Below, in pieces: positions 671-63,376 of a stretch of DNA of 64,000 nt. This DNA is from Symbiodinium natans (Eukaryota > Sar > Dinophyceae > Suessiales > Symbiodiniaceae). The notes under the pieces were generated by a model. It was not told where the DNA came from. It saw only the letters and a program-made list of their open reading frames with translations, and did not search any database. The DNA lies in assembly GCA_905221605.1 (NCBI GenBank), contig CAJNDS010002833.1, forward strand, positions 124,001-188,000. The letters are read 5' to 3'. Within the stretch, counting starts at the first letter, position 1. Every line of letters starts with the position of its first letter. Position numbers and translations under genes: made by a program.

Positions 671-1511
671 GTGCTGGATGAGGCCACCTCTGCGCTGGAC
701 TCCCAGACGGAGCAGCGCATCCAGCAGGCGCTGAGCGTTCTCAGCGCGTCGCGGACGGCCGCTCGGACGTTAGACCCTTCATGGGTGTAGGGTTTAGGGT
801 TTAGGGTTTAGGGTTTAGGGTTTAGGGTCCATGAGTACAGGCAGCGATCTCCGCAAAAACCCTCAGCCCTAAACCCTCAACCTTAATCTCTTAACCCTGT
901 GGAGCTTTGTTTTCTTGAGGGCTAGGGAAGATCAAGCTGACCTGACCTGTTTAGGGTTTTAGGGTTTTAGGGTTTTAGGGTTTTAGGGTTTTAGGGTTTT
1001 AGGGCTTTAGGTTTTTAGGGTTTTAGGGTTTTAGGGTTTTCGGGTTTTGGGGTCTTAGGGTCTTAGGGTTCTAGGGGTTTAGGGGTTTAGGGGTTCAGGG
1101 TTTAGGGTTTGGGCTCAGATGAGCAAAGAAATCCGGGGGCAGGTTGTGGCAATCGCCCACCGCCTCAGCACCATCAAGGCCTACGATCAGATCTGCGTCC
1201 TGGAGTCCGGACAAATCGCCCCTCGGCCCCCAAAGGGCTTAGGGTTTAGGGTTTCGGGTTTAGGGTTTACTGGTTGCTGCTCAACTCCTTGGAGGTTCAG
1301 GGTACTGAAAACCTAAACCCTAAACCCTAAACCCTAAACCCGAAACCCTAAACCCTAGCCCTAAACCCTAAACCCTAAACCCCAAATCGCTCCTCAGGTG
1401 GAGTCCGGCACGCACGACAGCCTCCTCGAGAGAGGGGAGGCTTATGCTGCGATGTGGAAGAGACAGGCTGCTGGAATCATGGAAGATCCAGAATGGGAGG
1501 ACCCCCTTTAG
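671..1511 (+). CDS. ABC transporter ATP-binding domain, last three exons
   Basis: C-terminal part of an ABC transporter ATPase domain, which hydrolyses ATP to drive membrane export. Exon 671-757 encodes Walker B and D-loop (VLDEATSALDSQTEQ) and ends in SASRT. Exon 1143-1217 begins VVAIAHRLSTI, the H-loop, and ends LESGQI. Exon 1398-1511 continues VESGTHDSLLERGEAYAAMW, the usual end of B-family exporters. All three join in phase 0 and read as one continuous domain. Inferred donors are GC (after 757 and 1217); acceptors are AG. The stop TAG at 1509-1511 lies inside the first unit of a TTTAGGG array, so the array may supply the stop codon. Walker A and the signature motif lie outside the window or were not found. 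Both introns are filled with telomere-type repeats. Alternatively a GA donor near 1500 could lead to another exon near 1820-1908. Family assignment is firm; the 3' end is less so. Confidence 0.85.
787..1111. repeat. TTTAGGG and TTTTAGGG arrays in ABC intron 1
   Basis: Six TTTAGGG units at about 787-829, then an octamer variant array TTTTAGGG at about 949-1111 that decays into TTAGGGTC and TTTAGGGG variants. The two blocks occupy most of the inferred intron between exons 671-757 and 1143-1217. Confidence 0.85.
1237..1384. repeat. Opposed telomere-type blocks in ABC intron 2
   Basis: TTTAGGG units at about 1237-1268 are followed by CCCTAAA units at 1312-1384. The two blocks face each other, so transcript of this intron could fold into a hairpin. 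Confidence 0.75.
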
Positions 1512-1800
1512 GGTTTAGGGTTTAGGGTTTAGGGTTTAGGGTTTAGGGTTTAGGGTTTAGGGTTTAGGGTTTAGGGTTTAGGGCCTAGATAGAGACTTTG
1601 AAAACGCCCCGATGCCCTTGCTAAAACGTGCCAAGCTAAGAGACCTTTGCGTGTATGTGTGTGCGTATATATATATATATATAATGTATACATGTGTATA
1701 TATATATATAGACACATAACATACATATGTACATATATATATATGTATATTGTATTTATACATACACATATATATGTACATATATACATATATATAGATG
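1506..1800. repeat. TTTAGGG array followed by TA-rich microsatellite
   Basis: About eleven TTTAGGG units (1506-1584), then a TA/TATG dinucleotide-rich stretch at 1662-1800. Reading frames on the minus strand here (Tyr/Ile-rich) are simple-repeat artefacts. Confidence 0.85.
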
Positions 1801-1819
1801 TACATATTGGTGATTAATT

Positions 1820-1908
1820 TCTTGAGTCATTGACACATGCCCCGGCTGAAGCGAAGGACGTGCAGGCTGGCAGTCCTAAGAAGGGAGCTGAGAAGGCAGC
1901 TGCCAGCT
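1820..1908 (+). CDS. Possible small terminal exon, unassigned
   Basis: After CTTGAG a short open frame encodes an Ala/Lys/Glu-rich tail that contains AGSPKKGAEKAAAS and ends in TGA at 1906-1908. The composition and GC-rich codons resemble exons in this window, and it is flanked by repeats on both sides. It could be an alternative last exon of the ABC gene (if a GA donor near 1500 is used) or an unrelated remnant. No homology is recognised. Confidence 0.3.
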
Positions 1909-1913
1909 GACGG

Positions 1914-1964
1914 GCTTAGGGCTTAGGGCTTAGGGCTTAGGGCTTAGGGTTTAGGGTTTAGGGT

Positions 1965-2003
<39 letters not shown>

Positions 2004-2006
2004 GGG
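1914..2006. repeat. Variant heptamer array (GCTTAGG, TTTAGGG, TTGAGGG)
   Basis: Successive runs of GCTTAGG, TTTAGGG and TTGAGGG units, showing local homogenisation of different heptamer variants. Confidence 0.8.
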
Positions 2007-2070
2007 GCATTCGGCGGCCCTGTACATACGGCTAGCGGCTGGAGACTCTTGATGCTCGCCGCAGCGAGAC

Positions 2071-2454
2071 TTGTACAGACTTGTAAGCCTCTTCCGGCGG
2101 CAGGCAGCGGGCCACGAAGCAATATCCCCTTATAGCCCTTGTTATTATACACAACAAATCGGTCCCAATATGTTGATGGTCCTTGTTGAACAGAAGTTCC
2201 AACAGTGGGCCTTCTTGCAGGTCATAGTCACGGTTGAGGACATCGCTAGGCTGCTGCGAGGGGGGTGGGTGGTACTTTCAATAAAGCCGAGGACGATCGC
2301 ACCTGCCAGCGCCGGCAGTCTTTGCGGCGATCCTTCGCATTGGCTCTTCAAGGGCAACGTCCGTGTGGACGATGCATTCCTGCATCTGCCCTGGGCGAAG
2401 ATCCGCCGGCATGTGCAGCTTCGACCACTGCCGGCCTGTCGTCAGGGTTACTGA
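2071..2454 (+). CDS. Hypothetical ORF, unrecognised
   Basis: A 127-codon open frame between telomere-type blocks ending in TGA at 2452-2454. The C-terminal half has GC-rich codons and a plausible composition (for example VRVDDAFLHLPWAKIRRHVQ), whereas the first half is less protein-like. I recognise no domain. It may be one exon plus retained intron, or noncoding. A competing minus-strand frame (2145-2357) is shorter and no more convincing. Confidence 0.3.
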   Translation: MYRLVSLFRRQAAGHEAISPYSPCYYTQQIGPNMLMVLVEQKFQQWAFLQVIVTVEDIARLLRGGWVVLSIKPRTIAPASAGSLCGDPSHWLFKGNVRVDDAFLHLPWAKIRRHVQLRPLPACRQGY

Positions 2455-2838
2455 GCTGCCCCCCTGCTACCCTAAACCCTAAACCCTAAACCCCCCCCAT
2501 GTATATCTATATATATATATATATGTGTGTGTATGTATATATATATATACACATATATATACATATACCTATCTTTGTGCCAGTTCTTTAGAGTTCCTTT
2601 TTGGGGTAGCCTTTATATGTATGCATATATACATATATATGTATGTGTGTACGTAGATATCTAAAGGCCTGTGCGATGTGACATGCTTCGGTATCTTGCT
2701 TGGACCCTTAGACACTTGGGCCATCTTGGGCCTCGCGTGATTTTCCAACGACTCCAAAGAACTTTGGTTTAAGAGTCCCAGGCTCCACTGCGCCCCAAGG
2801 TCCAAAGAAAAGTGCCCTGATTGACTGGGGGGGGAAGG
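2455..2838. repeat. CCCTAAA block and TA/TG microsatellite, no gene seen
   Basis: A few CCCTAAA units (2469-2492) precede TA/TG dinucleotide repeats to about 2660. The remaining 180 bases before the transporter show no coding signal. Confidence 0.6.
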
Positions 2839-3055
2839 ATTGGGGGTGTTTGTTGCTTGCAACTGCTGTTATGATGACATCTGCCGTTGCCACTACTTTT
2901 CCGTCATGACCGACAAACCGAAAGTAGCCATGCAGCTGGCAAGTCTGTGTTGTCCAGTTGTCGCTTGCGTGCACCATGATGCGTTCTGCTGCGATGTCTG
3001 CTCTTGTAGTTTTCAGTTTTTGCGCTGTCACTGGTACGTCCATCCCGTGCAAACC

Positions 3056-4426
3056 ATGGCACCCATACTAAGCGCTCTGGCAACTGGCATCGGCCTGTTG
3101 ACCGACAAGTACATGCTTGGCGCCACCAATTTTGTCGAGCACTATGCGCTCGACTTTCACGCAACTCATGCACAGAAGGATTTCGTGAAAGCTGCCATGT
3201 ACGCCGGGGCTATGCTGGGCATGATTGTCATGGGTCCGGCATCCGACTTTTTTGGACGCCGTTTAGGCCTCATTCTTTGCTCCTTTATCACGCTGCTCGG
3301 TGCATTGCTCTCTGCTCTGGCTTGGAGTGAGAACGCACTCATTGCAGCCCGTGTCATCACTGGTATTGGTATGGGTGGTGAGTATCCCCTGGCTTCGTCG
3401 CACTCTGCCGAATCGTCGGACAAGACGAGCGACGGTGCTCGAAACGTCGCCCTACTGTACCTCTTCGGGAGCGGTTTTGGCCAGGCGTTGTGCCCGTTCG
3501 TGACGTACTTGATGGATGTCGCGGGTGTTCCGCACAAGCTTCTTTGGCGATGGATCTTTGGAGTGGGCGTGATTCTCTCGGCTCTGGGCCTGGCCTTGCG
3601 GTACTTCGCCATCCAGGACAGCCAGAAGTTCGTGGAAAGCAAGCAGGCCGAGCAGAAGCACCATGCAAGCACATGGAAGATCCTGGCCCCGTACTGGCGG
3701 GCGCTTCTGGGAACAGCGGGGTGCTGGTTCCTCTTCGACATTGTCGAGTATGGGTTGAAGCAGAATGATGCGGCAATCTTTAGCAAGAACGCCTCGGCCA
3801 CGTATACCGACAGCATCCTCCAAGTTTTATGGAGCCGCCTACTGGTGATCCCTTCCTTGATTTTTGCCCCGTGGCTCCTTACCAAGATCTCCAGCAAAAG
3901 AGTTCAGCTCGTGGGCTTCCTGGGCTGTGCGCTGGCCAACCTCATTTTAGCAGTTGCCTATGAAGAGTTGCAAGACTTGTCTGGCCTCTTCTTTGCGTTC
4001 TATATTGCTCAGCTGTCCTTCCAGAGCCTGCCAGGGGTCACCACCATGGCGATCTCGGCGGAGATCTACCCAAGCATGGTCCGCGGCACCGGCGCCGGCA
4101 TCAGCGCCGCCTGCGGCAAGCTCGGCGCGACCGTCGGCTCCTACTTCTTTTCCGAGCTCAAGAACTTGGGGGAAATCAGGGCGATCTTCTGGACCGTGTT
4201 TGCCACATCTGGTCTGGCCATGCTACTCACGGTGCTCACTACTCCCTACTACAACGGAGATGGGCTTGATGAGGCAGATGCGCTTGCCTGTGACTCAAAG
4301 CCAGGCCAGGCGGTGAAGGTGCTGTACGCCGGTCCGAAGAATTGTGACGGGACAGAGCCAACGAAGTCGGCCAGATACGTCTCGGAGGACTTGGCCGACG
4401 ATGCTGAGGAGAATGTGATGGCCTAA
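3056..4426 (+). CDS. MFS transporter, phosphate/organic-ion permease type, intronless
   Basis: A 456-residue 12-helix major facilitator superfamily permease of the inner or plasma membrane. TM1 contains GIGLLTDKY, matching the Asp in TM1 of Pho84-like H+/phosphate symporters. The loop 2-3 signature is GPASDFFGRRLGL. RVITGIGMGGEYPLASSHSA matches the phosphate-symporter TM4 signature, and EIYPSMVRGTGAGISAACGK the TM11 region. This points to the sugar/phosphate-porter clan. Substrate cannot be read from sequence; phosphate or an organic anion are both possible. The frame is open from 2840, but the extra residues are Cys-rich and unlike the family. ATG 3056 lies just before TM1 in an ACCATGG context, and a pyrimidine run with TTTTCAG at about 3010-3018 could be a splice or trans-splice acceptor. 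Unlike its neighbours it has no intron and no telomere-type repeats. The stop is TAA followed by AAAAG. Confidence 0.88.
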   Translation: MAPILSALATGIGLLTDKYMLGATNFVEHYALDFHATHAQKDFVKAAMYAGAMLGMIVMGPASDFFGRRLGLILCSFITLLGALLSALAWSENALIAARVITGIGMGGEYPLASSHSAESSDKTSDGARNVALLYLFGSGFGQALCPFVTYLMDVAGVPHKLLWRWIFGVGVILSALGLALRYFAIQDSQKFVESKQAEQKHHASTWKILAPYWRALLGTAGCWFLFDIVEYGLKQNDAAIFSKNASATYTDSILQVLWSRLLVIPSLIFAPWLLTKISSKRVQLVGFLGCALANLILAVAYEELQDLSGLFFAFYIAQLSFQSLPGVTTMAISAEIYPSMVRGTGAGISAACGKLGATVGSYFFSELKNLGEIRAIFWTVFATSGLAMLLTVLTTPYYNGDGLDEADALACDSKPGQAVKVLYAGPKNCDGTEPTKSARYVSEDLADDAEENVMA

Positions 4427-5418
4427 AAAGGGAGGGTGCCAAATGGTGCAATAGACTGAGTAGACTGCAAAGTAGCTGCACGAGAGCTTTTGAACGGCTG
4501 CGGGGCCGTTCTTGCAAAGCGAGAAGTCTGGTGCCACAATAATTGTTTTTCTCAAGCCGCCGGCGAGATCTGACCTAGAGCCGGTTTCCTCTTGACCTCA
4601 CAGCCCACGCTGGAATGTGCAATTAACCTGCAAGATTATGCACGAGCCATCAAAAGCCATCCAGGGCCATCAAGAGCCATCAAGAGCCATATCTTGCGCT
4701 GCTTGAGCGCCGAAAACATGATTACCAGGATCTGTGTCTTTCGTGCCATCTAGTTCAACCGTGCGTCTGAATTGTGGGAGATATTGGAGCCGCAACGATC
4801 CCAGATGCCAACGCAACACACGTGCAGCTCTCGAAGTTAGAGTTTCTTCTCGCAGCGTGGAGCCATAGCCTGGGGTACCCCAACAGGCCCAACAACCCAA
4901 GCCCTAAACTCAAAACCCCAAGCCCTAAACCCTAAACTCCAAAACCCTAAACCCCAAACCCTTTAAACCCCAAACCCTAAACCCCAAAGCCCAAACCTCG
5001 AGAGCTGCCATCATCGTCTGCCACTCGCAGGCTCATGTGCCTTCGGCACCCTAAGTCCCTGATATTTAGGATTTAGGGTTTAGGGTTTAGGCCCCCCCCA
5101 AAAAAAAAATATATATATATATTCTTCTTCCTTATAAGGGCATTATTGGGATTATTTTGCATATATGTTTGGGTGTTCTTAAGCAAATAGTAGATCAGAG
5201 GGTGTAGCAGAAGAGAGTTTTTAAAAGCCAGGCAGTAGAGGAAAATGCAAGGTTTAGGGTTTTATGGTTCTTAGATGTTTTGTGAGGCTTTTCTAGAGGG
5301 TTTTGTTAGGGTTAGGGGCTCAATTCTGAATCCGACGCCCTCAAGTCTACTGCCCATGAGACCCCAGGAACCCCTAAACCATTCTAAGCCCTAAACCCTC
5401 AACCCTAAACAAAGCGCC
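4427..5418. other. Intergenic region with degenerate CCCTAAA block
   Basis: After the transporter there is a short GAGCCATCAA tandem (about 4646-4690), then CCCTAAA-like variants with C or A changes (4895-5000) and a few TTTAGGG units near 5068-5090. A poly-A/TA run is at 5099-5121 and the right half of a small foldback element at 5121-5193. No gene is supported. Confidence 0.6.
5121..5193. mobile_element. Foldback family 1, truncated right half
   Basis: Matches the right half of a roughly 110-bp foldback element seen again at 5991, 29296, 33717 and 56675: CTTATAAGGGCATTATTGGG, then GTTCTTAAGCAAATAGTAG. The left inverted repeat is missing and replaced by a TA run. Confidence 0.6.
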
Positions 5419-33563
<28,145 letters not shown>

Positions 33564-35319: not shown

Positions 35320-35406
35320 AACCCTAAACCCTAAACCCTAAACCCTAAACCCTAAACCCTAAACCCTAAACCCTAACCCCTAAACCCTAAACCCTAAACC
35401 CTAAAC
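35320..35406. repeat. CCCTAAA array
   Basis: About twelve units, followed by a 12-base poly-G run. Confidence 0.9.
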
Positions 35407-36272: not shown

Positions 36273-36286
36273 CCCCAAAAAATCTA

Positions 36287-37967: not shown

Positions 37968-37999
37968 GTCCTAATCCCTGAGCCCTACACACTAAGCCC

Positions 38000-49689: not shown

Positions 49690-49934
49690 CCTTGTCTGGT
49701 GGGCTTTGGCTTGAAGCACGCGCTGCCTTCGGTCATGACACAAGGATGTCCTGCAACTCGAGTCCCTCATGCTTGGTGACAGCAGGCCTGCGATCATGGC
49801 GGGCATCGGTGGGCGCAATGCTGAGGCTCTGTGAAAAAGAACGGGATTTCATAGGTTTCACGGAGCATTTGCAGCTTCACAGTGCACACAACCAACACCT
49901 TGCTGAGGGAACAATGCAGTCCCTTAACGAGTAA
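49690..49934 (+). CDS. Candidate terminal exon, unassigned protein
   Basis: After a pyrimidine-rich TTTCAG acceptor the frame runs 80 codons to TAA (49932-49934) and includes LWLEARAAFGHDTRMSCNSS and GAMLRLCEKERDFIGFTEHL. It is the longest uninterrupted frame in the 34-50 kb region and looks like the last exon of the gene whose pieces precede it, possibly the coiled-coil gene. No family is recognised. Confidence 0.45.
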
Positions 49935-50100
49935 TACATTGGGATAACGAGGTTCTTAAGGAAGGCCCTAATGCTCGGGGATTACAGATTCTGTACCGGA
50001 TGTGCTTCGACCCGATAGAGGCCTTTCGAAGTACCATGTGATCTGAAACTTGCTGACTCTTAAATGTCCTGTGCCCGAAGCAACAAGCATCCCGCAACCC

Positions 50101-50350
50101 TGTACCCTGTACCCTAAACCCTAAACCCTAAACCCCAAACCCCAAACCCCAAACCCTAAACCCTTCAGCAGGCCCGCGGCCTCCCAACAGCGCTTCTTTG
50201 GAGCTTCAGGCTGGGCCTCGCCAGGCCACGGCATGCGCCTGGCCTACTTCCAGGGGCCTTAATCATGAAGGGTTTAGGGTTTAGGGTTTAGGGTTTAGGG
50301 TTTAGGGTTTAGGGTTTAGGGTTTAGGGTTTAGGGTTTAGGGTTTAGGGT
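50101..50350. repeat. CCCTAAA block and long TTTAGGG array around a candidate exon
   Basis: CCCTAAA/CCCCAAA units at 50101-50163 and about eleven TTTAGGG units at 50272-50350 flank the candidate exon 50169-50253. Confidence 0.85.
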
Positions 50351-53300
50351 TTTCATAATGTCAATAGGAATTATTTTTTTTTGGGGGGGGTCATTATAGT
50401 ATGATTTTAAAGGGACCCTAAGGGAATACTGTTTTTTAGGCATGTCTAAAAAACCGGGTTTTGGGGGTGATTATAGTATACTTATAAAGGCACCCTAAGG
50501 GAATACTATGAGTAGTTATTCCGACCCCTATATTACGTCTACGGGCCACGGCCTTCAAGCTCTTTTAGGGTTTAGGGCCCTGTCGGGTTTTGGGTTTAGG
50601 GCTTAGGGCTTAGGGCTCAGGGTTTAGGGTTGAGTATCCGGCATAATTTCAGTTCTAGCTGGGGTAAGACTACCAGGTTGTTGTTTTGTTCGCTTTGGAC
50701 TCGATGAGGAGCTCAAAGGGGTTTAGGGTTTGGGGTTTAGGGCTTAGGGCTGAGGGTTTAGGGATTAGGGTTTAGGGTTTAGAGGTTTAGGGCTTAGGGT
50801 TTAGGATGGTGAGGGGGGGGGGGGGGGCTAATAACGTTCAGGCTGTTTGTCTCCACCAGCAATGCAAGCCCAAACCTTGAAACCTGCCCGATATAAGATA
50901 CGGGAATACCATTAGTAATTAATCCGACCCCCCTAGAGCAGCCCTACTGAAGGCTCTGCCTGTCAGCCACTTTCTGCTATGTCCGGAGTATGGGAGTGCA
51001 AGCCCAAACCCTTGAGCACATTATTCCTAAACCCCTAAACAGCAGCGCAAGCCCCAAAAATAGAAAAAGCCGCAAGCCTTAAGACCTCCCAAGCATGCAT
51101 CGAACAGGTTTCAAGATTTGGGCTTGCATTGCTGGTGGAGACAAACTGCTTGAACGTTATTACCCCCCCCCCCCCCCCTCACCCCCTAAACCCTAACCCT
51201 AAACCCTGAACCCAACCCTCAACCCGAACCTGAACCCTGAACCCTAAACCCTAAACCCCCCCCCCCCCCCGCCACCCTTCCACCCTCCCCCCAACAAAAA
51301 GCCTCAGGCACTTCAAGGCGGATCTGCAAAGCACAAGCCAAGCAAGTCAAGACACCCTAAACCCTAAACACTAAACCCTAAACCCTGAAACAAAAGCAAG
51401 AAAACGAGCGGCAGAACCCGGAAAGCACAAAGTCAAAACCACCAAAAACGGAAAATGCCCGAAGCCAGAAAGTGCGAGAACAAACCTTTTCAAAAACGAA
51501 AATAAATCTGCGAAATGTGCAAAATCCCAGAGAAAAGGACACTAAGAGTAGAAGAATGGGGAAGGAAAAAGCACAAGTGTAAGACAGTGCCCGAAGCGGG
51601 CACTAGAGAAAGTGGAGGAACTGTTCTAAATACCAAGGAAAACACGAAGGAATGCAAGATCTCGCGGGGCCACATACGCCCCGCATTCCAACGAGTAGGG
51701 CCGATTCATTGGCCAACATGGGTTCCATGTCGAAATTTAGTCACTGCCCCGCTGCTTTGCAAGTTATTTATTGCGGAACCCTGTTATCAAAGGATATGAA
51801 TGGATCACGCCGTAAGCACTCCGGAACTAGACCTGTACCTTTTGAGTTCAGGTCTGCAAGGGCGGATTCAAGGGCTTTCAGGGTTACCTGTTACCCACAA
51901 AATTGGGCTCTGGGATGGTCTAACATCACCCCTAAACCCTAAACCCTAAACCGTTGTTGCGCTAAGGTACGGAGAGCCCGGTCCAGATCCAACGAACGGG
52001 CGCAGGAAGATCCCCTGCTGCAATCGGGCATCCTTGCTCAGTGGGGCATGGGCATCAGAAGCCACAAACAGCCGAAGCTTGAAACGGGTTTAGGGTTTAG
52101 GGTTTGGGGTTTATGGGTTTAGGGGTTTAGGGGGTTAGGGGTTTAGGGGTTTAGGGGTTTAGGAATAAGGCCTGCCATGTGCTGCGCTTTCGTCCGAGGT
52201 GGCATAAAATGGATGGGGACTACAACAAGGACACTTAGCAGCTGAGTGTGTACACTTTACACTTTTTGGGATACCATAAATAAATCCCCTATAGAACTGA
52301 AAGTGTACACTTCTTGGGGCGCTTATGAACTCAGCAACTAAGAGGAGAAGGATTATCCACCGCTGGGCTCGCACAACGCCAGAGAGTACGACGAGCAGTA
52401 CGGCCGCTGGTGGTTTCAGAAGAAGGAGCTGGGCTCAGAACCGAGATCCTGGAAACTCTAAACCCTAAACCCTAAACCATGCGAGCTCCTAACAGCCCTA
52501 AACCCCAGGAGGACTGGCGTCCCAAGCTCTACACCACCATCGGCAGCCACGCGCGTAGCCCCAAGCTGAAGCGAACCATCCTCAGGACCGTCTGGCCTGA
52601 GGTTTAGGGTTTAGGGTTTCGGGTTTAGGGTTTAGGGTACCGAATAGCATGTCCCAAAGTACCCTACCCAAGTCCCGACCCCTAAAGCCCTAGACCCCCC
52701 AATTGGTACCCCCAGTTTTCGGAATCCCCCACTCCTGAAGGAAGTGCTACAACACACCCAACTTTCGGGCTTTGAAGAGGGACGTCTATCGCCTCGGGGC
52801 TGCACTGGCATGCTGACTGGGGGTCGGGTTTCGGGTTTAGGGGTTAGGGATTTGGGTTCATGGGGTTACTTGGGCTGCAAAGCCCTAGGACCCTAAACCC
52901 TTTGCCTTGATCCCGAAGCCCGAAACCCTGCCCGGATCCTGTAAGACCTTAAGACTCTAAAGCCCTAAGCCCTGATCCTCTATGGCCTTGCGCCCTAAAC
53001 AGTAAAAACCCTGATTCCTCAGAGCTCAAACCCGAGGACCCTAAAGCCCTGATCCCCCAAGCCCTAAACCCCAAAATCCTGACCCCTGATCCCCTAAGAC
53101 CCTGACCTAAATCTTAAACCCCTAAGACCCGAAACCCTGAACCCTGAGACCCTAAACCCTAAACCTTAAACCCCAAGACCCGAAACCCCAAACCCTAAAC
53201 CCTAGCCCTAAACCCTAAACCCTGATCCCCTCAGCCTTACTAAACCCAGACATGGAGGCAAGCGGTGGCCCAAGACTCGGGGGCTCAACTTCCAGTTCTT

Positions 53301-56300
53301 CGCGGAGTTCTGTCAGAAGGATGCTCGTCAAGATCTTGGGTTAGGGTTTAGGGTTTAGGGTTTAGGGTTTAGGGTTTAGGGTTTAGGGTTTAGGGTTTAG
53401 GGTTTAGGGTTTAGGGTTTAGGGTTTAGGGTTTAGGGTTTAGGGTTTAGGGTTTAGAGTACAGTGGGACCTTGGGACATCGGACAAGTTCCCCTCAAAAC
53501 ACACGGACCTTAAAGGGACCTAGTTCCTGGTGGCACCTGAGTCATGCATGACTCGGATCGACTGGTTTCCTCACTTTGATACTTTGATGAAGCAGCTGTA
53601 GCCATGACCCCGACTAAGGTCGGGGTTTCCGAAATTAGGGTACCTTATTATTGTGGTCCTTACTATAAGGGAATCCTACTATTGGGGGTCCATATGAGGG
53701 GCCTCTTATCTTCGTAAACCCTCTGGTGCACCTAGCCCCACCTATGAACCACCCATGCCACGCAAAAGCTGATGGCACGAGGACTTCAACAAGCGAACAC
53801 TGCTCGAGACGGCCCACACCCTGCCCTTGCTGCTTGGTGCTTAAACGGTTAGGGTTTAGGGTTTAGGGTTTAGGGTTTAGGGTTTAGGGTTTAGGGTTTA
53901 GGGTTTAGGGTTTAGGGTTTAGGTCTCTATTGTAGTACATTCCTTATTTTTGTAGCGTAGGGTAGCTCTGAACCCTAAGCCCTTCACTACGAAAGGCCTA
54001 ATGTTAACGTTTCGCAGCCCGACTCGGCCGTGGCCTGCCCAGTGGCGAAGCAACCCAAACCGGAGATGGGTTTAGGGTTTAGGGTTTAGGGTTTAGGTGT
54101 GTGAAGGTGCTCTGAGGCTTCAGGGTTTTGAAGATGTCTTCCAAATACTTGATCCTGTAAAAGGATGTAAGAGAGGCTTCGTGCAATCATGCCCTTTTGG
54201 AGATCCTGTTGTAACATGCGTGCTCATGTATAGACCACCCCACATGTGGGAGTGGCAAAACAAGAAAAACGAGCAGGCAAGGAAACGCGAATAGAGGTAG
54301 TGAAGGGTGGGGGCGGGCTAAGAGGGAGGAGAGGTGGGGGACAGAAGGAAACGCAACGGCTCTGGGGAGGACCAGGGCTGCGGAGGGATTCAAGGTGGGG
54401 TACCTGCCTTGTGTTACTCATACGGCCCGAGGCCTCGGTGAATTTGGACCACGATACCTCTTGGAGCTTACTAGCCATAGAGCACAGGCTCATAGATGCG
54501 AAGGTGAGTACAAAAAGGAGCCACAACTACCAATATCATCCCCGAATCATCCCATAATATACTACCTTGTTGAGCAAATGTGGCAGTCGGCCCCTGCAGT
54601 ACCAATCGCGTCGTAGATGCCAGTTGCACTTTCTGGAGCGCCCTTAAATGCGTCAACATCTTAAGCCTAAACCCTAACCCCTAAATCCCGGAATGAAACC
54701 CAAAAGGTTTGGCGCCGGCTGCAAATTCTGGCGGGCCCCAGATGTACAACACCCGGACTTTCGGCGGGGAATCAGGTTTGCACCCTGGGTTTTGGTTTTT
54801 AGGGCTTAGGGCTTCGGGCCCTGAAGGATTTTGAGTTTTTGGGATGCAGCCTTGACATGTTTTGCTATGTCAACCTTCATCTGGGGCATCATAGGGTTTG
54901 GGGACGTTTGGGGCGAGTAGGGGGGTGCAGAGACGGGGAGGGGGGGGGCGGGGCGGGGCAGGGGGGAAGGTCCGAAGTCTTGGTTCCCGCTTGTTGAGTG
55001 AAGCCAGGCCCTGTTTTTTCATGTAGGAGTGCGTTCTCGGCCACTGCAGCAGTCAAAAGACTCTGAGACTCTCCGTCTGGACTGCCAGCCTACCAGGAGT
55101 CCCAGGAAATATATTTGCGTTGTCATTCGCTTGCTTGCTTGCTTGCTCGCTGGCTTGTGTCGTGTCCGTGTGCACCTGCGTGTGCGAGTGCGCGTGTGTC
55201 TGTCCGTGCGGTCTCTTTGTTCCTAAGAACAGTAAACCCTACAACGCCCCATGCCCTAAACCCCAAGCCACCCCTTTCGCCCGAAAAGCGCCCAAAGCAA
55301 AGGACACCAAGGGGCAGTACTTCGTGGCGGAGTCTGTGGACTATCGGTTGAGACCCATCCGAGGTCCCTGGTTGCAGGGTTTCGGTGGTTTAGGGTTTAG
55401 GGTTTGGGGTTTAGGGTTTAGGGTTTCCGGTGGTTTAGGGTTTAGGGTTTGGGGTTAAGGGTTTAAGGTCTGAGGTTTAGGGTTCACGGCTTCGGGTTTA
55501 GGGATTAGCGTGGGTTTGGGGTTTCGGCGGTTGAGGCTTGAAGGCCCCGCTCTGTCACATGTTGAGGTTAAGTGCAGTCAAAGCTCTGAAAACTTTTACA
55601 ACCCTAAACCCTAAACCCTAAACCCTAAACCCTAAACCCTAAACCCTAAACCCTAAACCCCAAATCTTGTGGGGTTTCGGGTCGAGAGCATGCTCTCGAG
55701 GGGCACGCCTTGGGGGGGCTCCAACTCCTCGGTTGGGTTTAGGGTTTAGGGTTTAGGGTTTAGGGATTAGGGTTTAGGGTTTAGGGTTTTGGGTATTGAT
55801 TGTGGGCTGCAAGGGGGCGTTTGAGGTTTTGGCTTTCGGGGGCTGTTGGAGGTCGAGCGTCAAGCTCTCAGCATCTGCGATGGCTCAGAAGGGGGCGTTG
55901 AAGAACCCTAAACCCTAACCCCTAAACACCAAACCCTAAACCCCAAACTCCAAACCCTCTCAAAGGTGACATCCGCGGCACTCAGTACGTGTTCGGTCGG
56001 CCAGTTCCTTGGTCATAGTTCGGTATCATGTTGCATTTTTAAGGGTTCTTAAACCCAATAAGGAATAAAAATCTAAATTTTCAATACGACCCCAACCATG
56101 AACTAGGTTCGAGGCGGCATTGCGCCCATTGCAAAGTCGCTCGGGTGGGCGCGCTCAGTCTTGGCCAGACACATGGGATTTGGGATGGGCGGAGATCCTG
56201 GCGCCTCCTAAACCCTAAACCCTAAACCCTATACCCTAAACCCTGCACAAGCCCCCCAAAAGAAGCCCCAAAAGTTCGCTGAGGTCTTGGCGCTACGAGT

Positions 56301-56392
56301 TCCCCGAGAACGCGCACCCTGCCGTGTACCGACCGGCCTTCCCCGCGATGAAGAGCCAAGAGGAGTCTGAGACGACTGAGAGCACCGAATGA
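50169..56392 (+). CDS. Unrecognised multi-exon gene, possibly organelle-related
   Basis: Inferred exons: 50169-50253 (RPAASQQRFFGASGWA), 51967-52087 (ARSRSNERAQEDPLLQSG), 52170-52198, 52345-52437 (YPPLGSHNAREYDEQYGRWW), 52509-52601 (EDWRPKLYTTIGSHARSPKL), about 53250-53340 (frame ambiguous; KRWPKTRGLNFQFFAEF is one), about 54020-54058 (PDSAVACPVAKQPKPEMG), about 55283-55361 (GQYFVAESVDYRLRPIR), about 55968-56013 (GDIRGTQYVFGRPVPW), about 56107-56208 (IAPIAKSLGWARSVLARHMG), and the last exon 56284-56392 (RYEFPENAHPAVYRPAFPAM, then an acidic Glu/Thr tail and TGA 56390-56392). Exons 51967-52601 join in consistent phases. No known domain was recognised. The QQRFFGASG start resembles mitochondrial presequence ends, so an organelle protein is possible but speculative. 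Almost every inferred intron has telomere-type arrays, and two start with GTTTAGGG. Confidence 0.5.
50351..51966. other. Inferred intron with tandem degenerate motifs and CCCTAAA variants
   Basis: 50385-50440 and 50460-50510 share GATTATAGTAT.(C/A)TT and CACCCTAAGGGAATACT, a local duplication. Variant heptamers lie at 50580-50810 and 51185-51260. A segment at 50838-50880 (TTCAGGCTGTTTGTCTCCAC and CAGCAATGCAAGCCCAAA) is repeated inverted at 51115-51160, bounding a roughly 300-bp palindromic segment. The open frames at 51515-51942 have no recognised domain. Confidence 0.5.
52822..53230. repeat. Highly degenerate heptamer tract
   Basis: Variants such as CCCTGATCCCC, CCCTAAGACC and CCCGAAACCC without uniform runs; an old decayed array inside an inferred intron. 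Confidence 0.7.
53338..53458. repeat. Longest TTTAGGG array in the window
   Basis: About seventeen near-perfect units (121 bp), starting directly at the end of a candidate exon. Confidence 0.95.
53622..53722. mobile_element. Foldback family 2 copy
   Basis: GGGGTTTCCGAAATTAGGGT at the left and CTCTTATCTTCGTAAACCCT at the right, with TAAGGGAATCCTACTATTGG in the core. Confidence 0.7.
53850..53922. repeat. TTTAGGG array
   Basis: About ten units in the intron before exon 54020-54058. Confidence 0.9.
54059..55282. other. Inferred intron, mostly unassigned
   Basis: It starts with four TTTAGGG units (54068-54097). Plus-strand open frames (54097-54294, 54246-54557) and minus-strand frames lack domains. 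A G-rich run lies at 54937-54965 and GCTTGCTTGC repeats near 55128-55152. Confidence 0.4.
55378..55665. repeat. TTTAGGG variants then CCCTAAA array
   Basis: Two copies of a GGTGGTTTAGGGTTTAGGGT unit (55384 and 55430) and about nine CCCTAAA units at 55600-55662. Confidence 0.85.
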
Positions 56393-56458
56393 GGGTTTAG
56401 GGTTTAGGGTTTAGGGTTTAGGGTTTAGGGTTTAGGGTTTAGGGTTTAGGGTTTAGGG
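56393..56458. repeat. TTTAGGG array directly after a stop codon
   Basis: About nine units begin right after the TGA at 56390-56392 of the preceding gene. Confidence 0.9.
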
Positions 56459-56674
56459 CGGCTAGGCGGGCTGAGGGAGCTTCGGGCTTTAAGAAATACG
56501 TAGAGGACTTGCCAGTGGGCAGGTCTGGCTTGGTTTGGTGTGATGGTTTCTAGAAGCTACCATAGCTTCTAAACCCTAAACCCTAAACCCTAAACCCGAA
56601 ACCCCGTGTCCGCGAGCGGCCGGCATCTCCAAGTGAGCCGGGCGGCCAAAAAGTGCACTCGAGCATGGAGCTAG

Positions 56675-56773
56675 CTACTGTTTGCTCAAGAACCCCCGAG
56701 CAATAAAACATGTTCTTCCCTATAAGGGTAATAAGGGAATCATTCATGTTTGTGGGGTTTTCAAGCAAATGGC
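56675..56773. mobile_element. Foldback family 1 copy
   Basis: CTACTGTTTGCTCAAGAACC at the left and GGGGTTTTCAAGCAAATGGC at the right, with core AACATGTTCTTCCCTATAAG. Confidence 0.75.
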
Positions 56774-58087: not shown

Positions 58088-59380
58088 GAAAGGACTGCCG
58101 AGTTCCCGGTGGATGCCAGCGAGGACGTGGCAGGTGCCGTCTCTTCTGCTTCGTCAGGGCCGCTGCGGGACTACCAGGACATGAGATCAGGTTTAGGGTT
58201 TGGGGTTCAGGGCTTAGGGTATGGGGGTTTCCGAAAGGAGGGTTGTACCCGGTTAGAGGGTTTTTAGAATAAGTAAAAAGGATTCTAGCATTTCGGTTTT
58301 ACTTAAGTAGGGGAATACCTATATTGGAGAGGGGGAGGGTGGTTAACTAGGGCATCTTGAATGAATACTTGGGGGGCGGGGGGGTGTGATCAAGAGGTCG
58401 GCCTTTGCGCGTTGGCCGTTTTAAGGGATTCAAAGTTCAATCTTGGAATGTTCTCACTTATACTAACCGTCCTGAATAGGGATTCGAATAGGTTCATTAG
58501 AATCCCTGGGAAGGACTGCTAGCTTAAGGCTAAACCCTAAACCCGAAACCCTAAACCCTAAGCTGAAGTTATCGGGTTTCGTGTGGTGGTTGCGGCATGA
58601 AAGCAGGACAAGCTGAAAGCGATCCAGCTGCGCGAGACGCTCTATTTGAGTTTCAGCCGTCGCCGTTTGTCCTTCGCATTTTGTCACCCTAAACCCCAAA
58701 CCCTAAACCCCAAACCCTCAACCCTAAACCCTAAACCCCCCGTATAGCCACAGATCTAAGGAAGGGCCTGTCGAAAGCGGAGATTGCCGAGAAGGTGGGT
58801 CGCTCTGAGCACTGGGTCAAGAGGCGCTTGGGAAAGAGCCCTAAACCCTACCCTAAACCCTAAACACCCCTCAACCCTAAGCCCCACTGAGATCCTCTGA
58901 ACCCTGTAAGACCCAAGACTCGAGGGCTCAAGGCCCTGCAGCCCTTAAACACTACAGCCCTACGGGTTTAGGGTTTAGGGTTTAGGGTTTAGGGTTTAGG
59001 GTTTAGGGTTTAGGGTTTAGGGTTTAGGGTTTAGGGTTTAGGGTGCCCTAAACACCCTTGCGAGGTGGTGGCGTGAGCATCCCGCCACCCTGGAGAGACC
59101 GGTGGGCTCCCGCGACGTGGTGCTCCAGCGCGCGTCCCTGAACTCCTTCCGTGATCTTGAGATCAGGCTCGCCGAAGTCCGGTCCCTTAAAGGAAGTACC
59201 CCCGAAGATTAGGGCCCCTAAACCCTAAACCCTAAGCCCTAAACCCTAAACCCTAAACCCTAAACCCTAAACCCTAAACCCAACTCTGCCAGGCGCGGCT
59301 TTGCCAACGACGCCGCGACCTTTGACAGCTTGGTGAAGCAGGCCGTACTGTCAATGTCGCCCGCGGCAAGCGGGCATTGA
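58088..59380 (+). CDS. Five-exon gene with helix-turn-helix-like segment, 5' end unknown
   Basis: Exons 58088-58190, 58607-58675, 58754-58835, 59065-59166 and 59293-59380 join in matching phases (1, 1, 2, 2) into one frame ending in TGA at 59378-59380. Key segments: RTAEFPVDASEDVAGAVSSA, SDPAARDALFEFQPSPFVL, LRKGLSKAEIAEKVGRSEHW followed by VKRRLGK, WWREHPATLERPVGSRDVVL, and NDAATFDSLVKQAVLSMSP. The LSKAEIAEKVGRSEHWVKRR stretch has the pattern of a DNA-binding helix-turn-helix (Ala at the first-helix position, Gly in the turn), so a DNA-binding or regulatory role is a reasonable inference; no named family was recognised. Donors are GT (GTTTAG at 58191), GC, GA and GC. All four introns contain telomere-type arrays. 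The start codon lies upstream and was not identified. Confidence 0.65.
58540..59281. repeat. Telomere-type arrays in the four introns of the HTH-like gene
   Basis: Intron 1 starts GTTTAGGG (58191) and ends with CCCTAAA units at 58535-58562. Intron 2 has units at 58686-58740, intron 3 has CCCTAAA at 58838-58865 and about twelve TTTAGGG units at 58966-59044, and intron 4 has about nine CCCTAAA units at 59219-59281. Confidence 0.9.
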
Positions 59381-60129
59381 CCAGAAGAGGGGGAAAACTT
59401 CACATGCCCCAAAAAATTCGAGTCCTTGTTACCACCAAGAAAAAGGGTACAGCCCTCATGTAGCTGACACCTAAACCCTAAACCCTAAACCCTAAACCCT
59501 AAACCCTAAACCCTAAACCCTAAACCCTAAACCCTAAACCCTAAACCCTAAACCCTAAACCCTAAACCCCCCCCCCCCCCCCGCCGCCGCCAGCTCGCAG
59601 ACCGAACTTCGGTAGATTTTCAAAGCCCCCGCTGTGCTTTTGCCATGCAGCGCCCGATCGTACTGCTCTGTGCCTCGAGCTTGTACTCTTGAGGGTTTAG
59701 GGTTTAGGGTTTAGGGTTTAGGGTTTAGGGTTTAGGGTTTAGGGTTTAGGGTTTAGGGTTTAGGGTTTAGGGTTTTTATCGCTAACAAACCCTAACGTTA
59801 AAAGACCCTAAATGCTTGTACGTTTAAGGGTTTGGAGGCTGGAGAGGAGTTTAAGGAGGGGAAACCTGCAATCCAAAGACCCCGAAGCCACCGGCTTAGG
59901 GTGCATAAGGCTTACGCAGTGCGTAGTCCAGGGCAGAATCCGAATAGGATCCCCAATGATGGAAAAGGTTGATCAAGGGCCTAGTAGGTTCAAGACTAGA
60001 GCGGCCCTAAAGTTCCTAGTCTCATGCCATTATGCCGATCACCCAGGTGCATGGTTCCTTGCAGCATGGGGAGAGGACGTGGACTTCTTTCCGGATAGCC
60101 AGAGGGCTTGCCATGGGACGTCATGCTTA
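59381..60129. other. Spacer with two long opposed telomeric arrays
   Basis: About fourteen CCCTAAA units (59470-59569) ending in poly-C, and about eleven TTTAGGG units (59694-59774), facing each other across 120 bases. An open frame from 59812 runs into tandem copy 1, but its first part has no counterpart in the other copies and is probably intron or upstream sequence. Confidence 0.7.
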
Positions 60130-60594
60130 GATCAGGAAGACGCGGCACTTCTGCAGGCCACATCGCAGGCCGTGAAGCCTCATGGTCCTAGCAAGGGCAA
60201 GAAGGTCGGCCACACCAAGGCCACCTATTACCCGGCCGCGCATCCAGGCAAGAAGCTCGGCCACACAAAGGGCAAGAAGGGCAAGAAGGCGCCGGCATCA
60301 GACCCATCGGAGCCTGCTGCTTATCCAGGCAAGAAGCTCGGCCACGTGAAGGGCAAGAAGGCGCCGCCATCAGACCCATCGGAGCCTGCTGCTTATCCAG
60401 GCAAGAAGCATGGCCACACGAAAGACAAGAAGGACAAGAAGGCGGGCAAGAAGCTCGGCCACACGAAGGGCAAGAAGGCAGGATACTATCCGGAGCCAGC
60501 AGCAGAGGTGGAAACGCATCTTGACTCAAGTGGCCAAAGTTGTGCACCTTTCTTCTTCCAGTTGCAAAAAAACCCCAAGTGCACTGTGTCATAG
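60130..60594 (+). CDS. Tandem family copy 1: lysine-rich GKKLGH repeat protein
   Basis: Homology with the other copies begins exactly after CTTAG at 60129 (ATCAGGAAGACGCGG), as expected for an exon start after an AG acceptor; the first exon was not found. It encodes EDAALLQATSQAVKPHGPSK, then repeats of YPGKKLGHTKGKK and DPSEPAAYPGKKLGH, ending in KNPKCTVS and TAG/TAA-type stop at 60592-60594. The protein is very Lys/Gly/His-rich with Pro/Ala/Ser linkers. No family recognised; the basic repeats suggest nucleic-acid or polyanion binding, which is inference. Minus-strand frames (Cys/Pro/Ser-rich) across all copies are shadows. Confidence 0.7.
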   Translation, partial: DQEDAALLQATSQAVKPHGPSKGKKVGHTKATYYPAAHPGKKLGHTKGKKGKKAPASDPSEPAAYPGKKLGHVKGKKAPPSDPSEPAAYPGKKHGHTKDKKDKKAGKKLGHTKGKKAGYYPEPAAEVETHLDSSGQSCAPFFFQLQKNPKCTVS

Positions 60595-60685
60595 TGGTCC
60601 AGGTTCGAACTCCTAAGGCCTAAGCCCTTCAAGAGCCCTCAGCCCTGCCACACTTTGAACCTACAGAAACACAACTAGGCCGGAA

Positions 60686-61246
60686 ATGGATGAGATGCCG
60701 GAGGCGCCTGAGGCGCCTGAGGCGCCTGAGGAGTCCGAGTTGCCCTCCGAGCTGCAGGATGAAGACGAGGTGCCGGATGAAGATCAGGAAGACGCGGCAC
60801 TTCTGCAGGCCACATCGCAGGCCGTGAAGCCTCATGGTCCTAGCAAGGGCAAGAAGGTCGGCCACACCAAGGCCACCTATTACCCGGCCGCGCATCCAGG
60901 CAAGAAGCTCGGCCACACGAAGGGCAAGAAGGACAAGAAGGCGCCGGCATCAGACCCATCGGAGCCTGCTGCTTATCCAGGCAAGAAGCTCGGCCACGTG
61001 AAGGGCAAGAAGGCGCCGCCGTCAGACCCATCGGACCCTGCTGCGTATCCAGGCAAGAAGCATGGCCACACGAAAGACAAGAAGGACAAGAAGGCGGGCA
61101 AGAAGCTCGGCCACACGAAGGGCAAGAAGGCCGGATACTATCCGGAGCCAGCAGCAGAGGTGGAAACGCATCTTGACTCAAGTGGCCAAAGTTGTGCACC
61201 TTTCTTCTTCCAGTTGCAAAAAAACCCCAAGTGCACCGTGTCATAG
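60686..61246 (+). CDS. Tandem family copy 2: acidic N-terminus plus lysine-rich repeats
   Basis: Complete intronless copy of 186 residues. It starts MDEMPEAPEAPEAPEESEL, an acidic Pro/Glu-rich region with DEDEVPDEDQEDAALLQATS, then five basic repeat units (YPGKKLGHTKGKKDKK, YPGKKLGHVKGKK, YPGKKHGHTKDKKDKK, AGKKLGHTKGKK) and a C-terminal tail ending NPKCTVS. The start is supported by conservation of ATG in copies 2, 3 and 4. Upstream spacer ACAACTAG|GCCGGAA could be a trans-splice acceptor, fitting dinoflagellate tandem arrays. The spacer to copy 1 is 91 bases. Confidence 0.8.
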   Translation: MDEMPEAPEAPEAPEESELPSELQDEDEVPDEDQEDAALLQATSQAVKPHGPSKGKKVGHTKATYYPAAHPGKKLGHTKGKKDKKAPASDPSEPAAYPGKKLGHVKGKKAPPSDPSDPAAYPGKKHGHTKDKKDKKAGKKLGHTKGKKAGYYPEPAAEVETHLDSSGQSCAPFFFQLQKNPKCTVS

Positions 61247-61340
61247 TGGTCCTCGAGGTTCGAACTCCTAAGGCCTAAGCCCTTCAAGAGCCCTCAGCCC
61301 TGCCACACTTTGAACCTACAGAAACACAACTAGGCCGGAA

Positions 61341-61991
61341 ATGGATGAGATGCCGGAGGCGCCTGAGGCGCCTGAGGCGCCTGAGGAGTCCGAGTTGCCC
61401 TCCGAGCTGCAGGATGAAGACGAGGTGCCGGATGAAGATCAGGAAGACGCGGCACTTCTGCAGGCCACATCGCAGGCCGTGAAGCCTCATGGTCCTAGCA
61501 AGGGCAAGAAGGTCGGCCACACCAAGGCCACCTATTACCCGGCCGCGCATCCAGGCAAGAAGCTCGGCCACACGAAGGGCAAGAAGGACAAGAAGGCGCC
61601 GACATCAGACCCATCGGAGCCTGCTGCTTATCCAGGCAAGAAGCTCGGCCACGTGAAGGGCAAGAAGGCGCCGCCATCAGACCCATCGGAGCCTGCTGCT
61701 TATCCAGGCAAGAAGCATGGCCACACGAAAGACAAGAAGGACAAGAAGGCGGGCAAGAAGCTCGGCCACACGAAGGGCAAGAAGGCAGGATACTATCCGG
61801 AGCCAGCAGCAGAGGTGGAAACGCATCTTGACTCAAGTGGCCAAGGTTGTGCACGTTTCTTTCCAGTGGTGGTTTGTGCATCTAGAGTTGGCCGTCCGCT
61901 TCTGCAAAATTCCCAGCTGCACTGTGTCGTAGTGGTCCTCGAGATTCGGGCTCCTAAGCCCTGGGCCCTCCAAAAGCCTGCCGTTCTTTGA
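61341..61991 (+). CDS. Tandem family copy 3, altered C-terminus
   Basis: Nearly identical to copy 2 through AEVETHLDSSGQ, then diverges: extra sequence CCAGTGGTGGTTTGTGCATC at about 61864 changes the frame, so the frame passes the usual stop and ends at TGA 61989-61991, giving 216 residues. The extension is hydrophobic (VVVVLEIRAPK) and derives from what is 3' spacer in copy 2. It may be a degraded end or reflect an unrecognised intron. Confidence 0.7.
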   Translation: MDEMPEAPEAPEAPEESELPSELQDEDEVPDEDQEDAALLQATSQAVKPHGPSKGKKVGHTKATYYPAAHPGKKLGHTKGKKDKKAPTSDPSEPAAYPGKKLGHVKGKKAPPSDPSEPAAYPGKKHGHTKDKKDKKAGKKLGHTKGKKAGYYPEPAAEVETHLDSSGQGCARFFPVVVCASRVGRPLLQNSQLHCVVVVLEIRAPKPWALQKPAVL

Positions 61992-62018
61992 ACCTACAGA
62001 CGCACAACTAGGCCAGAA

Positions 62019-63376
62019 ATGGATGAGATGCCGGAGGTACCTGAGGCGCCTGAGGAGTCCGAGCTGGTGATTCGTACCTCTCAAGTAATACAGTTATATC
62101 ATGATGCATCATGGGGAAGTAGCAACTCAGAATCAGTAATTGGTATTGGTTTAATGGCCAGTCAGTAAGTAGTCTTTCGTCACTAGCGAGTAGCACTTAT
62201 TAGTAAGTCGCAGTGAAGAACTAATCATCAGTACTGATTAATCGCAAGCCCCCAAAACCCCAAACCTTGACCCTGCGGCGTTAGTGAGCTTGGGGGGCGT
62301 AGAGGCTTGCCGGGGAGGACCCCTGAAGCCGTGTGGCGCTAGCATTACAAAGCCTGCCATCATGCGCTCGTTGTTTGTGCTCGTGTCGTGTGGTGTTGCC
62401 AGGTGGAGCTTGGGAGGGGCTTCTCCCGTGCGGAGATTATGGGTTTAGGGTTTAGGGTTTAGGGTTTAGGGTTTAGGGTTTAGGGGGTTCAGGAGGAGCT
62501 CCTGGGGTCCCAGCAAGGGGGCTCAGGTCGAGTTGGGAAGGCGGGAAGGAGACGAGATTCGGTCCGCTTGTCCCACGGCGAAAGTGAGGCGAACTTGAGA
62601 CTAGCAAGTATTTATGAAAAGTCGCCACCAGCAGTTGATATTTAGCAGTTAGTGGCGAGGATGAGGACGAGGATGCGGGCGAGGATGAGGATGAGAATGA
62701 TGAGCCGGATGAAGATCAGGAAGACGCGGCACTTCTGCAGGCCACATCGCAGGCTGTGAAGCCTCATGGTCCCAGCAAGGGCAAGAAGGTCGGCCACACC
62801 AAGGCCACCTATTACCCGGCCGCGCATCCAGGCAAGAAGCTCGGCCACACGAAGGGCAAGAAGGACAAAAAGGCTCCGGCGCCGCCATCAGGCCCATCGG
62901 AGCCTGCTGCTTATCCAGGCAAGAAGCTCGGCCACGTGAAGGGCAAGAAGGACAAGAAGGAGCCGGCGCCACCATCAGACCCATCGGAGCCTGCTGCTTA
63001 TCCTGGCAAGAAGCTCGGCCACATGAAGGGCAAGAAGGGCAAGAAGCCGCCTGCGCCATCAGACCCATCGGAGCCTGCTGCGTATCCAGGCAAGAAGCTC
63101 GGCCGCGCGAAGGACAAGAAGGACAAAAAGGCGCCATCGGACCCGGCTGCGTATCCAGGCAAGAAGCATGGCCACGCGAAGGACAAGAAGGCAGGATATT
63201 ATCCAAAGCCGTCACCAACACCAACACGCATCTTGACTCAAGTGATCAATGTTGTGCTCGTTTCTTTCAAGCTACTGGGGTTGAACGTCCCGCTGACAAA
63301 TCCTGTTTTGACATTGCCAAGCCCTAGAAGCTTTGAACCTACAAGCAAGCAAGCAAACCAGGCCGGTAACGGATGA
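62019..63376 (+). CDS. Tandem family copy 4, two exons with telomere-repeat intron
   Basis: Exon 1, 62019-62066, encodes MDEMPEVPEAPEESEL and ends at a GT donor (GAGCTG|GTGATT). Exon 2, 62660-63376, begins after GGCGAG with an acidic Asp/Glu run (DEDEDAGEDEDENDEP), then EDAALLQATSQAVKPHGPSK and six basic repeats with longer APPSDPSEPAAYPGKKLGH linkers. Phase 0 at both sides. Copies 2 and 3 are continuous at this position. The intron (62067-62659) contains a TTTAGGG array at 62440-62487. The frame ends at TGA 63374-63376 inside a spacer-like sequence, so the true stop or a further splice is uncertain. It is more diverged from copies 1-3 than they are from each other. Confidence 0.75.
62067..62659 (+). 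other. Inferred intron of tandem copy 4
   Basis: 593 bp, GT start and AG end, absent from copies 2 and 3. It contains CAGTCAGTAAGTAG-like short repeats (62090-62250), heptamer variants and seven TTTAGGG units (62440-62487). Confidence 0.6.

Follow-up and report, generated by a model that had tools for sequence, protein, structure and literature searches.

The locus considered here, a 64,000-bp stretch of the Symbiodinium natans genome (C2521:124001-188000, hereafter the window), raises the question of how telomere-type DNA is distributed around genes, and what could have placed and kept it there. The window lies within a 264,580-bp contig of an assembly of 759,417,921 bp in 2543 contigs. Its tandem arrays are composed of TTTAGGG, reported to be the telomere repeat of dinoflagellates, or of its complement, and are called T arrays when they read TTTAGGG and C arrays when they read CCCTAAA. 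A preliminary description of this DNA had proposed that telomere-type repeats spread as, or into, introns. Spliced alignments of four genes, i.e., an ABC gene (abcB6), gene A, gene B (HTH_23) and a TTL-like gene of locus L020, placed array blocks within predicted introns of real genes. Besides, the arrays have a strand polarity relative to exons, T arrays prevailing on the donor side of introns and C arrays on the acceptor side, which is a new observation beyond that description.

Arrays in introns, exons and other non-coding DNA

The window contains 692 exact heptamers (370 TTTAGGG and 322 CCCTAAA), and perfect runs of two or more units number 117. A decay-tolerant count gave 166 segments (82 T-type, 84 C-type), which together cover 18.5% of the window (11,868 bp). 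Three Markov-resampled windows yielded 0, 1 and 0 segments, and the arrays are thus far above chance. Genome-wide, 1,706,651 overlapping exact 4-unit matches were counted (853,942 forward, 852,709 reverse), against 31 for the pattern read backward (21 forward, 10 reverse); with a 7-bp step, the perfect repeat amounts to at least about 12 Mb. Loci on other contigs were taken at a fixed position from contigs at even steps; among the 18 asked, 6 contigs were too short. In the remaining 12, which provide 115,000 readable bases (one locus is partly N), 18,986 bases were telomere-like (16.5%), with a range per locus of 0.6%-42.9%. The array-poorest loci include L017, where light-harvesting-like single-exon genes stand in tandem, and L018, which has a retroelement-like stretch; both were named by eye from translations. 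A subtelomeric location was rejected, because the exact 4-unit density of the window (2578/Mb) is near the genome average (2247/Mb) and the window is interior to its contig.

Pfam scans of the plus-strand frames, with stops written as X, gave no convincing domain, and the genes were located by homologues instead. For this purpose, guessed exons were joined and searched against 5.8 billion proteins, which returned 37 proteins for two window genes and then 101 for ABC and the TTL-like gene. The spliced-alignment script admitted three donors (GT, GC, GA) and required AG at the acceptor, a following G being rewarded only. The resulting models comprised 31 introns for ABC (99.5% identity over 637 amino acids to P0156, annotated "abcB6 [Symbiodinium natans]", with P0160 also aligned), 12 for gene A (87% identity to P0119), 22 used from a longer model for gene B (86% to P0136) and 13 for TTL (86% to P0165), the sole modelled gene from another contig. 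Inner junctions agreed across homologues, save for single junctions that differed by 4 nt in gene A and by 3 nt in ABC; in gene B, the outer portions of the model and an inner one also varied between homologues. As an independent check, the joined ABC exons were aligned to PDB chains of plant ABCB19, and the alignment ran without a gap over the two junctions examined. Gene B introns upstream and downstream on which three homologues disagreed, a stretch near 66086-66438 and the uncertain first intron of gene A were dropped from the counts; an early exon guess at about 54037 was also rejected, as it proved to be intron. Over the four genes, the 78 introns have 42 GC, 19 GA and 17 GT donors, and 76 of them end in AG followed by G. 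These modelled introns have dinoflagellate-type junctions and are predicted to be spliced, indirectly, from the unbroken match of the joined exons to homologous proteins, some of which come from contigs of 0.9-2.8 kb that are probably transcripts. The S. natans genome paper (PMC8045281), which also describes RNA-seq and IsoSeq reads, reports gene models as retained given transcript evidence or two ab initio predictors. No intronless retrocopy of gene A, which could have served as fossil cDNA, was found, the seven genome matches all lying at its own locus. Genome matches to ABC numbered 41, of which three are the window gene; the identity of its paralogues is 34-53%, and long open frames are common among them. 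At G000:C92:193013-220726, for instance, ABC-type genes with long open frames follow each other at a spacing of ~5 kb, unlike the 31-intron abcB6.

The main intron counts cover all 78 introns, some tests below being limited to 36. Arrays were present in 62 of the 78, including 25 of 31 in ABC and 18 of 22 in gene B, so that the earlier statement that every intron of the best models contains an array did not hold. Their presence depended on intron length: 6/11 below 130 bp, 17/27 at 130-250 bp, 25/26 at 250-500 bp and 14/14 above 500 bp, i.e., 39 of the 40 introns of at least 250 bp. Arrays make up 7421 of the 31,067 intron bases (24%), and long introns appear to be long in large part through arrays and other inserts. 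Exons carry no arrays: the 47 of 4228 internal-exon bases scored as array all belong to one exon that is bridged by a long decayed segment and is not itself repeat. The preliminary description had proposed comparing array density in introns with that in intergenic DNA. Arrays are enriched in introns, the exact 4-unit density being 3766/Mb in the 78 introns vs. 2247/Mb genome-wide, but they are not confined to them, as three non-coding stretches beside and between genes contain 10.4% (1908-3055), 17.6% (4427-6600) and 15% (56390-57853) of array bases. A TTTAGGG-type array also begins 0-4 bp past the stop codon in two of three genes checked (4 bp in ABC, 1908-2005; directly in gene A, 56390-56458; TTL has none).

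Polarity of the arrays around exons

Within 60 nt of donors, 36 T arrays were found vs. 5 C arrays, and over the same distance from acceptors 33 C arrays vs. 13 T arrays (Fisher P 2e-8). This polarity was observed in gene A (donors T7:C0, acceptors C8:T1), gene B (T11:C2, C10:T2) and ABC (T14:C2, C12:T7). Among the 33 introns that hold two or more arrays, T came first and C last in 22, and the reverse order occurred in 2. Of the introns with a single array, 12 have a C array, which is on the acceptor side in 10 of them, and 17 have a T array, which is on the donor side in 10. The introns, exons and arrays concerned in the window are listed here, with the evidence for each in brackets.

592..650, plus strand, TTTAGGG array in ABC intron 312-670 (array scan, spliced alignment)
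671..757, plus strand, ABC (abcB6) exon (spliced alignment to P0156 and P0160)
758..1142, plus strand, ABC intron, GC donor, acceptor AG followed by G, arrays T, C, T (spliced alignment; ungapped PDB alignment over junction)
1143..1217, plus strand, ABC exon (spliced alignment, PDB alignment)
1218..1397, plus strand, ABC intron, T by donor, C by acceptor, T:C hairpin of about 35 pairs (spliced alignment, predicted fold)
1398..1499, plus strand, ABC exon (spliced alignment, PDB alignment)
1500..1856, plus strand, last ABC intron, T array at 1507-1588 (array scan, spliced alignment)
1857..1907, plus strand, last ABC coding exon, then stop codon, then T array 1912-2005 (spliced alignment)
50235..51966, plus strand, first gene A intron used, arrays T, T, T, C, C, C (spliced alignment)
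52009..52198, plus strand, gene A intron, T array (spliced alignment)
52230..52344, plus strand, gene A intron, array-free (spliced alignment)
52426..52508, plus strand, gene A intron, degenerate C array by acceptor (spliced alignment)
52590..52744, plus strand, gene A intron, T then C; other homologues give 52586-52740 (4 nt uncertain)
52791..53257, plus strand, gene A intron, T then C (spliced alignment)
53320..53781, plus strand, gene A intron, T array by donor (spliced alignment)
53829..54706, plus strand, gene A intron, T, T, C (spliced alignment)
54756..55302, plus strand, gene A intron, degenerate T then C (spliced alignment)
55364..55965, plus strand, gene A intron, T, C, T, C (spliced alignment)
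56004..56106, plus strand, gene A intron, array-free (spliced alignment)
56145..56283, plus strand, last gene A coding intron, C array (spliced alignment)
56392..56458, plus strand, perfect TTTAGGG array directly 3' of the gene A stop codon (array scan)
58178..58606, plus strand, gene B (HTH_23) intron, T by donor, C by acceptor (spliced alignment, predicted fold)
58636..58760, plus strand, gene B intron, C by acceptor (spliced alignment)
58824..59064, plus strand, gene B intron, opposite order, C then T (spliced alignment)
59167..59292, plus strand, gene B intron, C by acceptor (spliced alignment)
59342..63693, plus strand, gene B intron of 4352 bp with tandem open reading frame (ORF) copies and five array segments (spliced alignment)

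Because 65 of the 78 introns come from a single 84-kb stretch, a test that is free of gene models matters. Indeed, the order T...C is identical on either strand, so that gene direction is not needed to count islands lying between a C array and a following T array. In the window, C-island-T gaps of 40-200 bp numbered 18 vs. 8.9 expected under shuffled orientation (P 0.0002). Hence, the arrays do occur in both orientations as first described, and their orientation is non-random. In the 12 loci on other contigs, 19 such gaps were found vs. 9.5 expected, none of 5000 shuffles reaching 19, and T-C gaps numbered 9. These islands of 40-200 bp have exon length.

Array growth and the sequences between arrays

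The arrays analyzed for unit variation comprise 3734 units in 358 arrays, GGGTTTA accounting for 1475. In 249 of 1972 cases (12.6%), the unit following a variant repeated that variant, vs. 7.5% in within-array shuffles, the highest of 500 shuffles giving 8.6%. Variant units are therefore clustered, which points to array growth by local tandem amplification, as illustrated by blocks of GGGTTTTA, GGGGTTTA, GGGTTGA and 9-nt units.

In a 204-kb sample, repeats were shared by 41 of 120 spacers between a T and a C array, by 15 of 138 spacers between a C and a T array, and by 78 of 258 random chunks. As random chunks match as often as T-C spacers, only the low C-T figure is informative, and it is expected for islands that hold exons. 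The repeats shared by T-C spacers belong to several unrelated families that are present between C and T arrays too. Since such dispersed families occur between arrays and elsewhere, the arrays do not form the termini of a single element. Two families of about 100-130 bp were located in the window, one at 5106, 5976, 29295, 33717 and 56675, the other at 26598, 30520, 39141, 44326 and 53622; at least one of the two is palindromic-ended. Another inverted-repeat element, which is not telomeric and whose ends resemble ACTTGGAGGTTCA...TGAACCTTCAAGTA, occurs in array-free ABC introns (upstream locus L009), in TTL introns (L020) and at about 28280-28450 of the window, and is probably an introner family. 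The gene B intron 59342-63693 contains tandem copies of a lysine/glycine-rich ORF, of which copy 4 has a 624-bp stretch with a T array where its sisters have 25 bp. Their use as an empty-site test was rejected, the array lying inside the 624-bp stretch and not at its edges, and no frame-keeping splice was found by eye for this stretch.

The preliminary description had the arrays extending over the whole window, which is not the case: none was found in 6661-9930, 13268-18411 and 18412-24600. The first of these is a satellite rich in AATATT, its units measuring about 140-160 and 380 bp. The second is a recent element of the long terminal repeat (LTR) type, bounded by 359-bp direct repeats (13268-13626 and 18053-18411) that are 100% identical and 4.8 kb apart; a minus-strand ORF inside it (16022-16714) encodes a putative zinc-knuckle-like stretch. 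Close to it lies a 600-bp repeat pair (17396-17997 and 23780-24379, 91% identical). A GIT1-like transporter is encoded by a single-exon ORF at 3056-4426, with dinoflagellate proteins as top matches (118 matches, the named ones largely from Symbiodinium) and identities of 97% to P0001 and 83% to Symbiodinium sp. CCMP2592. Outside S. natans, five IMG/VR contigs (L030-L034) contain TTTAGGG arrays, mostly of about 50-110 bp, in 1-2 segments each.

Origin of the arrays and comparison with known systems

The reading that we favor, to which we give a probability of about 0.45, is that telomere-type minisatellites spread through non-coding DNA and were kept in introns in splice-compatible polarity. 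The telomere heptamer would be a very abundant interspersed minisatellite of the non-coding DNA of this genome, whose arrays, presumably seeded at many sites, would lengthen and diverge through tandem amplification in place, persisting in introns and intergenic DNA and being purged from exons. Introns would preferentially keep G-rich TTTAGGG at the donor side and C-rich CCCTAAA at the acceptor side. A C-rich array, being AG-free and containing CTAAA, could be tolerated in the region of the branch point and pyrimidine tract, and each unit of a T array near the acceptor would present a false acceptor, TTTAG followed by G. The donor-side G-rich array could also pair with the acceptor-side C-rich array, drawing the splice sites together. 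Selection on splicing as the cause of the polarity, and any effect of the arrays on splicing, are what we infer. CTAAA was found in the final 70-8 nt of 38 introns vs. the first 8-70 nt of 13, and the median distance from the previous AG to the acceptor was 23 nt with a C array there vs. 13 nt otherwise. All 13 T-donor/C-acceptor introns of 190-650 nt showed predicted end-to-end pairing, with 42.5 bridging pairs vs. 9.9 in shuffles, compared with 15.4 vs. 11.6 for 24 other array introns and 14.3 vs. 14.0 for 7 array-free introns. The predicted folds of the ABC intron 1218-1397 (z -8.66) and the gene B intron 58178-58606 (z -3.94) were better than their shuffles. The single-array data are what a constraint on the acceptor side would predict.

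Several observations weigh against this account. TTL, the gene from another contig, is without clear polarity (donors T4:C1, acceptors T3:C3), the single-array comparison reaches only P = 0.053, and some of the 13 T arrays near acceptors end less than 30 nt away. An intron with C first and T last could form a hairpin too, so that pairing alone does not explain the order. Genome-wide, a C array followed by TGCAGG occurred 4742 times vs. 8288 for a T array followed by TGCAGG, the opposite of expectation; this count is regarded as confounded, many T matches being unit variants like TTTAGGGTGCAGG, and as supporting neither side.

The polarity could also have arisen by the healing of breaks, which we consider rather unlikely, though the likeliest of the alternatives. 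Telomerase would add TTTAGGG to both 3' ends of a double-strand break, and rejoining would leave T on the left and C on the right; only breaks in introns or between genes would survive, and each exon would resemble a small telomere-capped fragment. Such a process accounts for the identity of the unit with the dinoflagellate telomere repeat and, since two-sided addition gives T...C on either gene strand, for the 22 introns with T first and C last against 2 reversed. It is also in line with an excess of close pairs (11 T-C gaps of at most 40 bp vs. 3 C-T gaps, at a score of at least 14) and with reports of telomeric insertion at breaks in mammals. However, T and C arrays are mostly separated by 40-400 bp of other sequence, many arrays consist of 8- and 9-nt variants that were apparently amplified locally, and the acceptor-side location of 10 of the 12 single C arrays is not predicted by random breaks. 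No empty site was found, the genome itself having no second copy of gene A and the tandem ORF copies being uninformative. Single-array introns are fitted better by splice-compatible retention than by break healing (P only 0.053), and the close T-C excess better by break healing; both processes can act, and neither is proven. A stronger version, in which exons are capped as CCCTAAA-exon-TTTAGGG and introns are rejoined healing scars subsequently used by the spliceosome, would give telomerase a major part in building intron length, and perhaps introns themselves, and seems to us improbable.

Equally doubtful is the spread of a mobile intron ending in a telomere-type inverted repeat, T...C. Inverted T...C pairs are indeed observed, lying 8-77 nt from the donor (median 25) and 3-71 nt from the acceptor (median 20) in 36 introns, and direct repeats at the junctions of these 36 average 3.03 nt vs. 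2.62 shuffled (P 0.007), with 15 of at least 4 nt vs. 9.1; however, repeats of at least 5 nt are not in excess (6 vs. 3.4, P 0.11). Introners with inverted and direct repeats are reported from dinoflagellates, and the 624-bp tandem copy with its internal T array, against 25 bp in its sisters, also speaks for this reading. On the other hand, the T-C spacers do not represent a single repeated body, the repeats shared by 41 of the 120 being those unrelated families that also occur in C-T spacers and random chunks, and array-free introns hold other inverted-repeat elements. Thus, among the origins first proposed, introner transposition is weakly favored by the junction repeats and disfavored by the spacer families, and telomerase action at breaks is possible and unproven. 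A plain expansion of simple sequence, without link to telomerase or splicing and with a polarity due to strand asymmetry of transcription-coupled mutation or repair, is no more convincing. Variant units do amplify locally, and a dominant simple repeat is known in the order, (TTG)n being reported as 19% of the genome of Polarella glacialis; nevertheless, a transcription-strand bias would favor one orientation throughout an intron, not T at its start and C at its end.

If about a sixth of the genome is telomere-type and order-fixed around exons, the synthesis of this repeat, or its spread, would have shaped gene structure genome-wide. Our analysis indicates an unexpected link between telomere-type DNA and the splitting and splicing of genes, and offers a testable case for the gain and retention of intron sequence and for whether array pairing across introns aids splicing. 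It also raises the question of how the genome tells true chromosome ends from many internal look-alikes, and calls for caution, since work on Symbiodinium telomere length and telomere fluorescence in situ hybridization may read internal repeats.

As first stated, no intron class defined by telomeric repeats was described in the literature searched, from which subscription papers mostly fell outside, and the term "telomer" is absent from the main texts, supplements apart, of the S. natans genome paper and a Symbiodiniaceae k-mer paper. As telomere-unit tandem arrays at non-terminal sites, the arrays are interstitial telomeric sequences (ITS). They resemble those of vertebrates and plants, tandem telomere-type repeats away from chromosome ends for which insertion at breaks was proposed, and differ from them in occupying about 16.5% of the sampled bases and most introns, and in being polar relative to splice sites. 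The introns of Arabidopsis and rice are reported to have a telo-box frequency slightly under the genome average. The introner elements of the dinoflagellates Amoebophrya, Prorocentrum and Effrenium (Roy et al., 2023) are reported to have inverted repeats near both intron ends and short direct repeats at the borders, to which the T...C pairs and the slightly longer junction repeats seen here may correspond. Unlike in introners, the inverted parts consist of telomeric repeats in long tandem arrays, and no body shared among introns of unrelated genes was found in the spacers of the 204-kb sample. As with (TTG)n in P. glacialis, from the same order, one simple repeat dominates non-coding DNA, although the unit is here the telomere heptamer and is polar around exons. 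Finally, the introns correspond to the spliceosomal introns of dinoflagellates in their junctions (donors GC, GA or GT in 78/78 and acceptors AG followed by G in 76/78, the aligner being limited to these donors and to AG), in agreement with published tables, and are set apart from them by their telomeric content.

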